Part shown: one piece after another, positions 13,209-16,803 of the stretch
How positions within the stretch are numbered: the stretch's first letter is position 1
How the letters are laid out: every line of letters begins with the position of its first letter
Assembly (NCBI GenBank): GCA_016870855.1
Contig: VGAF01000002.1
Coordinates: 1 to 40,779, forward strand
DNA from: Actinomycetota bacterium
GTDB lineage: Bacteria > Actinomycetota > Actinomycetes > Nanopelagicales > Nanopelagicaceae
Length of the DNA: 40,779 nt
Direction: 5' to 3'
Notes under the pieces: model-generated
Seen by the model: the letters and a program-made list of their open reading frames with translations, nothing else
Told to the model about the DNA's origin: nothing
The model's database searches: none
Program-made: the position numbers and the translations under genes

Positions 13209-14570
13209 TTAAAGTTTTGGATTGACCGGCTTCGCCGCTTTGATCTCCTCGAGCCGCGCCAAGGACTCTAACCGCTCCTTGGCGTGGTCGACGATTGGTT
13301 CTGGATAACCTTTAGAAAGTCCATCGATTACCGTCCATGGCTCATGAATATCATCACCACTTAAGTGAGCGAGCTCTGGGATATAGCGCTTGATGTAAGC
13401 GCCTTCTGGATCAAAGCGTCTTCCTTGCTCAATTGGATTAAATACTCGGTAATAAGGCGAGGCATCAGTGCCGCAACCTGCGGTCCATTGCCAGCCATGG
13501 GAATTAGATGCAACATCATTATCAATCAAATACTTCATAAAGAAGTTAGCGCCATGTTGCCACTCGATATGCAGATCTTTAACTAAGAATGAAGCAACGA
13601 CCATCCGGGTCCGATTATGCATCCAGCCCTCTTTCACTAGTTGGCGCATTGCGGCATCGACAAATGGATAGCCAGTGCGACCCTCGCACCATGCTTCGAA
13701 CTTCTTGCCCGGCTTGTCATAACGCATCTTCTTAAACTTTGCATCGTAATAATCGCGAGATGTATGAGGGTTGTTATGGAGAACATCGGCATAAAACTCA
13801 CGCCAAGCAATCTCTTTTCGATAGACCTCATGGCCCTTACCCTGTCCTAGAACGTTGAGCATGGTCCGTGGATGAATCTCACCCCAGCGAAGATGCGGGC
13901 TCATTCGACTTGTTCCTTCAATTCCCGGAATATTGCGCGCATCGCCATAATCATCTGAAGCGCGCTTTATGAAATCTGTGTAGCGCTTTAGCGCCGCGGC
14001 TTCGCCGGCCTCTTGAACCTCAACTTTTTCACTCTTATCCCAATTAGGAAGTTGGTGATCAGCCTTAGTCGGCGCTACCCACTTTGGATCTTTTGGCGCA
14101 GCAACTGGTTTACGCCAGCCATGTGCGCTCCATGCTCTATAGAAGGGCGTGTAAACACGATATGGAGTTCCATCATCTTTAAGTACCCGCCCTGGGGCTA
14201 CGGCATAGCCGCTACCAAGTTGAGTCAATTCAATTCCAACCTTCTTCAATCTCACATCAAGTTCATTGCCAAATGGTGCAAAAGGAAAAGCGCAGTGAAT
14301 CGAAGTCGCACCGTACTTTTTCGTTAAGCGCGTTAGGACTTCCACGGGATCCCCCGAAACAACATGTAAAGCGCCATTTATTGAAGCATCAAGGGCCTTA
14401 AGAGAAGCGGCTAGATATGCGCGGCGATGTGCACCGGCGCGCTCTGCGATCTCATCATCCATTATGAATAGCGGCACAACTTCATCGGCTTCATCAAAGG
14501 CTGCGAGTAACGCGGGATTATCACTAAGTCTTAAATCTCTTCGGAACCAGAAGATTGCTCGCTTGCTCAT
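13209..14570 (-). CDS. phrB: deoxyribodipyrimidine photo-lyase (cryptochrome/photolyase family)
   Basis: RAIFWFRRDLRLSDNPALLAA; NDVASNSHGWQWTAGCGTDASPYYRVFNPIEQGRRFDPEGAYIKRYIPEL; start taken as ATG 14570 (TTG 14582 also possible). Confidence 0.94.
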   Translation of the reverse strand: MSKRAIFWFRRDLRLSDNPALLAAFDEADEVVPLFIMDDEIAERAGAHRRAYLAASLKALDASINGALHVVSGDPVEVLTRLTKKYGATSIHCAFPFAPFGNELDVRLKKVGIELTQLGSGYAVAPGRVLKDDGTPYRVYTPFYRAWSAHGWRKPVAAPKDPKWVAPTKADHQLPNWDKSEKVEVQEAGEAAALKRYTDFIKRASDDYGDARNIPGIEGTSRMSPHLRWGEIHPRTMLNVLGQGKGHEVYRKEIAWREFYADVLHNNPHTSRDYYDAKFKKMRYDKPGKKFEAWCEGRTGYPFVDAAMRQLVKEGWMHNRTRMVVASFLVKDLHIEWQHGANFFMKYLIDNDVASNSHGWQWTAGCGTDASPYYRVFNPIEQGRRFDPEGAYIKRYIPELAHLSGDDIHEPWTVIDGLSKGYPEPIVDHAKERLESLARLEEIKAAKPVNPKL

Positions 14571-14587
14571 GGCAAGATTCAACCATT

Positions 14588-15394
14588 ATGGAGCAGATAA
14601 AGCGCTTTCAAGTTCGAGGACTTCCCGGATGGGTCAATCGGGTCAGCTTCTCCGGGCGAATCGTTGATTATTGGGCGCCTGTGGGTGGCAGCGACCATGT
14701 ACTTATCGCTCATGATGGCCAGAACATTTTTGACCGCAGGACCGCGACATTTATCTACACCTGGAAACTAGCCCAGACTGCAGCTCGAATAGCAAGAGAG
14801 TGTGGCAATAAACCTCCTCTGGTGATTGGAGTTTTCCATAGCTCCACAAAAGAAGATCCACATGGTCGAGCTAAAGATCTAGCTCCAGAAGATCCATTTC
14901 GCGATGGCATTAAGACCATGAATCCCCCAACATTTGCCGCAAGTGAACTGCGTGGAAATTCTTATCTGAAAGCAATTTTCGCAGAGATCACGCCAGAACT
15001 TGCAGCACATACCAAAACCAATTTTGTAGCCGAGAAGACTGCGATGATTGGATCATCAATGGGCGGACTTGCAACTCTTTATGCGCTTTCAAAATTTAGC
15101 GATAGTTTCCATACTGCGCTCTCGCTCTCACCGCACTGGGTACTTGCAGGCGACTCGTTAGTTGATTACCTAGTAAATAATTTACCGAATCGCCCCAAAT
15201 ACCGGGTTTGGATGAGTCGCGGCACTAAAGGCCTTGATGCCTCATATCTCCCCTACCAAAATCGCGCCGATGAATTGATGCGCGAGTTGAGTTGGGGAAA
15301 TAGATATCGCAGCAAGGTCTATCACCGCACTACTCATAACGAGAGATCCTGGGCTAGTTATGTTGATGAGCCTCTTAAGTTCTGGCTAACTTAA
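14588..15394 (+). CDS. alpha/beta-hydrolase, putative esterase family
   Basis: VLIAHDGQNIFD; nucleophile elbow MIGSSMGGLATLYAL; HWVLAGDS. Confidence 0.85.
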   Translation: MEQIKRFQVRGLPGWVNRVSFSGRIVDYWAPVGGSDHVLIAHDGQNIFDRRTATFIYTWKLAQTAARIARECGNKPPLVIGVFHSSTKEDPHGRAKDLAPEDPFRDGIKTMNPPTFAASELRGNSYLKAIFAEITPELAAHTKTNFVAEKTAMIGSSMGGLATLYALSKFSDSFHTALSLSPHWVLAGDSLVDYLVNNLPNRPKYRVWMSRGTKGLDASYLPYQNRADELMRELSWGNRYRSKVYHRTTHNERSWASYVDEPLKFWLT

Positions 15395-15451
15395 CCGGTA
15401 TATCCCAACAGCCGCAGCTACTACGAACCCTTTGAACAATTTGTTCTTCAT
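15386..15451 (-). CDS. Putative 21-aa membrane-type microprotein (MKNKLFKGFVVAAAVGIYRLS)
   Basis: AGGAG SD 6 nt before ATG, 5' hairpin leader and TTGACT-N17-TGTAAT promoter on the same strand; below ORF-track cutoff. Confidence 0.55.
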   Translation of the reverse strand: MKNKLFKGFVVAAAVGIYRLS

Positions 15452-15479
15452 TGGTTCTCCTATTTATCCTGCAGGGATC

Positions 15480-15498
15480 CTGTAGCGAGGGGCTACAG
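15480..15498. repeat. Perfect hairpin CTGTAGC-GAGGG-GCTACAG
   Basis: 7-bp perfect inverted repeat, 5-nt loop; sits at the predicted 5' end of the minus-strand microprotein transcript. Confidence 0.75.
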
Positions 15499-15505
15499 TG
15501 GAGGA

Positions 15506-15534
15506 ATTACATAACGCCCAAATCGGACAGTCAA
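15506..15534 (-). promoter_or_regulatory. Predicted sigma70-type promoter TTGACT-N17-TGTAAT
   Basis: -35 at 15534..15529, -10 at 15511..15506, exact 17-bp spacer. Confidence 0.6.
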
Positions 15535-15590
15535 AAGGAAATCAGGCTCAAATCGCTAATTATCGATTTGTTATAAAGGGCGCTTTTTTT
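15515..15590 (+). terminator. Plus-strand intrinsic-terminator-like structure with alternative stems and T7 tract
   Basis: CGCCC (15515-19) pairs GGGCG (15578-82) next to TTTTTTT; internal hairpin CAAATCG-ctaattat-CGATTTG (15549-15570). Confidence 0.5.
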
Positions 15591-15630
15591 CATTACGCAC
15601 TTGCAGGGGTTGAACCATTTAGGAACTGAA

Positions 15631-16743
15631 TCAGGAGTGAAGCATCCCCACGGTCGAATCCCAGCCATCGACGGCCTCAGGTTTGCGAGGACCCTTTCCG
15701 ACATAACGAGCTGATGGGCGGATCAATCGACCAGTGCGCTTCTGTTCCAAAATATGTGCAGACCAACCCGCAGTACGCGCCGATGTAAACATCGGAGTGA
15801 ACATATGTGGTGGAACTTCAGCAAAATCAAGAAGCACAGCAGCCCAGAATTCAACATTTGTTTCAAGGACGCGATCCGGACGACGCTCTCTTAATTCAGC
15901 GAGCGCCGCTTCTTCAAGCGCTTTTGCAACTTCATATCTTGGCGCACCTAACTCTTCACAAGTACGACGGAGCGTGCGCGAACGTGGATCTTGGGCGCGA
16001 TAAACGCGATGACCAAATCCCATCAAGCGCTCACCCTTATCTAGTAATTCTTTTACATATGCTCTCGCATCTCCGCGTTGTTCAACAGCTTGAATCATAT
16101 GGAGTACGCGTGATGGTGCGCCGCCATGCAGCGGTCCGCTCATTGCGCCAATTGCGCCAGAAATTGATGCCGCAACATCAGCACCGGTTGATGCAATCAC
16201 ACGAGCGGTAAATGTCGATGCATTCATTCCATGTTCTGCGGCCGAGACAAAATAAGCATCGATTGCCCGGACATGTTTTGGATCTGGTTCCCCGCGCCAA
16301 CGAATCATCATTCGCTCAACAACGGTATGAGCTTTATCAACTTCACTCTGTGGAATCATGGGCGCAGATCCACGCGCTGCTTGGGCAACATAAGAAAGAA
16401 CCATGACTGATACCCGGGCGAGATTTGAACGCGCCTCTTCATCAGAAATATCAAGTAGTGGCTTTAAGCCCCAAGCTGGTGTGAGCATCGCAATTGCAGA
16501 TTGAACATCGACTCGAACATCGCCAGAGTGAACCGGAATTGGGAATGGTTCAGCCGGTGGAAGGCCAGGATTGAATTCATCATCAACTAGAAGTCCCCAG
16601 ACATTTCCAAAGGTGACGCGACCGACTAGATCATCAATATCTACTCCGCGATAGCGAAGCGCGCTTCCCTCTTTATCTGGTTCTGCGATTTGTGATTCGA
16701 AGGCGATGACGCCCTCAAGGCCGGGCTTAAAGTCATCTGACAT
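15631..16743 (-). CDS. citrate synthase (citrate synthase 2-like)
   Basis: GLEGVIAFESQIAEPDKEGSALRYRGVDIDDL; SGAIGAMSGPLHGGAPSRVLHMI; KGERLMGFGHRVYRAQDPRS. Confidence 0.93.
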   Translation of the reverse strand: MSDDFKPGLEGVIAFESQIAEPDKEGSALRYRGVDIDDLVGRVTFGNVWGLLVDDEFNPGLPPAEPFPIPVHSGDVRVDVQSAIAMLTPAWGLKPLLDISDEEARSNLARVSVMVLSYVAQAARGSAPMIPQSEVDKAHTVVERMMIRWRGEPDPKHVRAIDAYFVSAAEHGMNASTFTARVIASTGADVAASISGAIGAMSGPLHGGAPSRVLHMIQAVEQRGDARAYVKELLDKGERLMGFGHRVYRAQDPRSRTLRRTCEELGAPRYEVAKALEEAALAELRERRPDRVLETNVEFWAAVLLDFAEVPPHMFTPMFTSARTAGWSAHILEQKRTGRLIRPSARYVGKGPRKPEAVDGWDSTVGMLHS

Positions 16744-16803
16744 GGCGCGTATTCTGCCCACAATTACACCTAGTGCGAAACCCAAGATGACCCGAGCCGG
16801 TAA

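Follow-up and report, generated by a model that had tools for sequence, protein, structure and literature searches.

Gene Content and Expression Signals of the Locus

The window (the whole 40,779 nt stretch of DNA that was analyzed, from the draft genome G000) carries three protein-coding genes around the locus of interest. The gene gltA (citrate synthase, 15631..16785, minus strand) is the upstream neighbor, an esterase gene (PF00756, 14555..15394, plus strand) lies on the other side and is convergent, and a photolyase gene (13209-14582, minus strand) follows further downstream. The longest ORFs of the esterase and the photolyase are divergent, and their starts overlap by 28 bp (14555-14582). 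Between gltA and the esterase, a series of expression signals on the minus strand precedes a 21-codon ORF, and an earlier note had described this arrangement as a hidden microgene with a hydrophobic peptide of its own. The elements it listed are all present: a -35-like TTGACT (15529..15534), a spacer of 17 nt, a -10-like TGTAAT (15506..15511), a perfect 7 bp hairpin with a 5 nt loop (CTGTAGC-CCCTC-GCTACAG, 15480..15498) where the transcript is expected to begin, a Shine-Dalgarno (SD) sequence AGGAG (15457..15461), and the ORF itself, MKNKLFKGFVVAAAVGIYRLS, which begins with an ATG at 15451 and whose stop codon ends at 15386. The SD-to-ATG gap needs correction, from 6 nt to 5 nt. The reported 9 nt overlap of the ORF with the convergent esterase is confirmed by the coordinates.

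The -35-like box reads TTGAC in all aligned genus members and the -10-like box reads TGNAAT in all relatives, and the two are 17 nt apart at all 24 loci examined. The TGTAAT escapes the stock promoter scan because it has a non-consensus G, and not A, at position 2, where A is near-universal in -10 elements. This G is found in all 24 aligned promoters, which is unusual for a promoter of the sigma-70 type.

The Two Halves of the ORF

When positions 15380-15620 were used in a DNA search, 10 of 100 genomes gave matches, counting that of the window itself. The match in relative G019 (82% over 211 nt) runs from the region downstream of gltA through the hairpin and leader, where GGATCCCTGCAGGATAAATAGGAG is likewise found, and into an intact MalE-type gene. 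Its product is 416 aa long, starts with MKKQILKGFAVAAALALSAGVVTPAQAANEIVVWADETRGPN, belongs to SBP_bac_8, and has MalE as its best NCBIfam match, though below the cut-off. Across 13 aligned leaders the -35-like box, TGNAAT, hairpin and start codon follow one another in constant order. The 5′ part of the window's ORF (15411..15451), about 13 signal-peptide codons, aligns with the intact malE genes of G019 and others. Read from this alignment, MKNKLFKGFVVAA in the window represents the first part of a MalE signal peptide, without the cleavage site, and the promoter and SD sequence in front of it would be those of a former malE.

A second match in G019, on another contig, accounts for the remainder. 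Here, 37 of 37 nt are identical to the 3′ end of an amylase-family gene encoding 600 aa, the best NCBIfam match of which is maltodextrin glucosidase, again below the cut-off. That gene ends in ETGSAAVGIYRLS (SAAVGIYRLS-stop) and, like the ORF in the window, is convergent with the esterase and overlaps it to the same extent. The 3′ part of the window's ORF (AAVGIYRLS-stop, 15386..15416) lies within the identical run, and 182 of the 200 nt that start at the junction agree with G019. The C-terminus of the enzyme is GIYR plus two residues in 9 of the 10 genomes listed, while in the tenth GIYRLS is followed by a few more residues. Since the two halves match the start of malE and the end of the enzyme gene, the 21-aa peptide (MKNKLFKGFVVAA followed by AVGIYRLS-stop) is read as a MalE start that continues in frame into the C-terminal residues of the last enzyme.

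The Maltose-Type Operon in Relatives

In relatives among Ca. Nanopelagicaceae, the promoter, hairpin and start codon have gltA on one side and on the other a maltose-type ABC operon consisting of malE, malF, malG and two amylase-family genes, the last of which converges on the same esterase. G008 and G022 each retain the complete order on a single contig, from gltA through malE and the last enzyme to the esterase, and the start of malE is 7.48 kb from the end of the enzyme gene; about 7.4 kb of this interval is missing from the window. Compared with this operon, the window shares the promoter, hairpin, SD sequence and first codons of malE as well as the last codons of the last enzyme, but everything between them is gone. 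The intact operon is found between gltA and the esterase in G008, G022, G013, G016 and G015, and the fusion in the present genome only, which points to the unfused (split) state as ancestral. A literature search on maltose operons in Nanopelagicaceae found nothing specific.

Operon presence varies within the genus: gltA directly faces the esterase in G003 and G006, and is directly followed by the photolyase in G004 and G018. Between gltA and the photolyase, G002 (contig C34) has a short secreted ORF resembling a starch-binding or pullulanase N-terminal fragment, which suggests that further carbohydrate genes have decayed here. Yet another arrangement is seen in G010 (contig C273), where a different mal operon occupies the gltA site and its leader has another small hairpin, TTGCCCGAGGCAA (by eye, about 140-165), unrelated in sequence to that of the window.

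Orthologs of the lost genes were not found elsewhere in the draft genome (88.8% complete, 177 contigs). There was no match to MalE in this assembly, the search for an ortholog of the lost enzyme returned only partial amylase-family matches (best E 1.6e-14), and MalG found only distant permeases, with 31% identity at near-full length and no more than 39% over short stretches. The DNA of malE-malF likewise had no match in the draft, in a search run without a positive control. The missing genes could sit in gaps of the assembly. An assembly artefact, in which the organism retains the operon but its ends were joined by the assembler or through a mixture of strains, might be suspected from the fragmentation of the draft, the variable presence of the operon within the genus, and the division of the G019 operon itself between two contigs. 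However, the lost genes are on no other contig of the draft, both flanks are collinear with relatives, and the ends have only a few bases in common, presumably not enough for an assembler to overlap them in the ordinary way. We consider an artefact of this kind very unlikely.

A Probable Deletion-Born Fusion ORF

The homology of both halves, the synteny, and the absence of the lost genes from the draft assembly lead us to conclude that the apparent microgene is, very probably, a scar left when a deletion of some 7.4 kb removed a maltose-uptake operon. The ancestral order would have been gltA, then promoter, 5′ hairpin and SD sequence, followed by malE, malF, malG, an amylase gene and a maltodextrin-glucosidase-like gene converging on the esterase, so that gltA and the esterase would mark the near and far edges of the deletion. 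The two ends of the deletion would have fallen within Ala codons, in the MalE signal peptide on one side and close to the 3′ terminus of the last enzyme gene on the other, and would have been joined in frame by chance, leaving a 21-codon ORF behind an intact malE promoter and leader. The junction is placed around 15411-15418, in Ala codons present on both sides. Microhomology at this point is plausible; TGCGGC is common to both sides, but with the malE of G019 only 3 nt out of register.

Fusion genes born by large deletions, in which the beginning of a gene is joined to the final part of a different one, have been described (Kaul et al. 2026 preprint, PMC12803068), and for one of these, the yjcO-lysU fusion, expression is expected without evident function. 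The present case is similar in that the fusion lies behind the expression signals of the first gene, but it differs in encoding only 21 aa, in joining the first gene of an operon to its last, and in that the evidence is comparative and comes from one draft genome. It represents a clean example of operon loss and in-frame fusion in a small-genome freshwater actinobacterium. For small-ORF prediction it also illustrates a trap, in that a deletion can produce gene signals that look convincing as a set.

The microgene proposed in the earlier note can be assessed from the distribution of its peptide. Among 151 family genomes, no other encodes the whole 21-aa sequence or keeps the frame as a small ORF, and the sole other match is one MalE N-terminus (E = 0.011); the expected conservation of the reading frame is not borne out, and an independent microgene was rejected. 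The broader suggestion, that a functional small membrane peptide uses these signals, either recruited after the deletion or as an independent gene, could draw on the intact promoter, hairpin and SD sequence and on an ORF that is open and in frame, with the basic N-terminus and short hydrophobic stretch that had been pointed out. Those last two features do exist, but charge and hydrophobicity would be inherited from the signal peptide, an in-frame joint has a one-in-three chance, and the peptide has no homolog in the 151 genomes. A functional peptide is accordingly regarded as extremely improbable. Judging from its signals, the fusion ORF is probably still transcribed, and its peptide is most likely functionless; the signals would be those of the lost malE operon, and the peptide a MalE start with an enzyme tail.

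A transcript from the retained promoter would extend antisense into the esterase. Under a further proposal, compatible with the deletion scar, the promoter itself is the functional part, producing RNA antisense to the esterase and perhaps also transcribing the photolyase beyond it in the sense direction (promoter capture). The promoter and hairpin look undamaged, the photolyase (minus strand) lies downstream in the same orientation, terminator-like matches in 14500-16800 are no more numerous than in shuffles, and promoter capture has been described beside large deletions (PMC12803068). Against this, about 870 nt, mostly antisense to the esterase, would first have to be crossed, an intact promoter may merely reflect a recent deletion, and the antisense or photolyase expression is a prediction from sequence. 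A functional role of the promoter in this sense is rated as unlikely.

The Promoter-Hairpin Element of malE

With the deletion scar largely accounting for the ORF, the malE leader hairpin is the part deserving a separate look. A covariance model of the promoter-hairpin-SD unit was searched against 201 family genomes, and the unit was found in 24 of them, from six genera, once per genome. Its order is kept in 15 genus genomes and in these 24 of the 201 family genomes, and in this respect the view that the alignment of signals goes beyond coincidence was well founded: the conservation of promoter and hairpin goes back to their having belonged to malE. Outside the genus, at nine loci, the unit lies upstream of genes that resemble, by translation, MalE-type substrate-binding proteins. 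In all six genera, a hairpin with a C-rich (CCCUC-like) loop occurs just after a TTGNN-N18-TGNAAT promoter (leaders L116-L138). The hairpin pattern has a single site in the present genome, even with up to three mismatches, and the exact pattern has at most one site in each genus member, which rules out a genome-wide palindrome regulon. It also occurs in four records from other phyla among 257 billion bases of genome_contigs; by simple arithmetic, about 30 chance matches would be expected there for a pattern of such degeneracy.

Among 23 distinct sequences, in an alignment that was fitted to the structure, 96.7% of stem cells are paired, compensatory changes affect both partners of all 7 pairs, and the covariation score is reached by no shuffle. 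An independently made alignment of 13 sequences gave the same 96.7% pairing, and three of its pairs show changes in both partners. Folding confirmed the hairpin. The folding energy of the 36 nt after the -10 box is 3.2 SD below simple shuffles, while the whole 72 nt leader is only 1.7 SD below dinucleotide shuffles. At the gathering score, Rfam gave no match to the hairpin or leader, either in the window or at the loci of four relatives; a match to SNORD109A (E = 0.19) was far below that score, and a known RNA family was set aside. A short leader ORF seen by eye in relatives (ATGGAGGAAAATTAATG) was also dropped, as its frame is not constant.

Operators of the MalR/AcrC type (LacI family) near actinobacterial malE genes are CTTGC(A/T)G inverted repeats with 2-3 bp spacers (PMC5526262). 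The window resembles these in having an inverted repeat with 7 bp arms beside a malE-type promoter, but its arms are CTGTAGC, which differ by inspection from CTTGC(A/T)G, and the spacer is 5 nt. The arms vary freely between genera and the C-rich spacer or loop is largely kept, and for this reason an RNA hairpin appears to be favored over a MalR-type DNA operator. We tentatively propose, as a possibility somewhat short of an even chance, that the malE-type 5′ hairpin of Nanopelagicaceae is an undescribed cis-acting RNA element, an mRNA stabilizer or translation regulator whose C-rich loop might pair with the SD region, and which now fronts a 21-codon scar. The malE promoter-hairpin is a testable candidate for the control of sugar uptake in this family.

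One other conserved sequence was noted by eye downstream of gltA, where the window (about 15555-15580) and relatives carry a TTTATAAC-N6-RTAAY element. It is also present in G002 and G010, in which the hairpin was not found. The element may be similar to an 11 bp direct repeat known for regulators of the OmpR type (GlnR and MtrA, for example).
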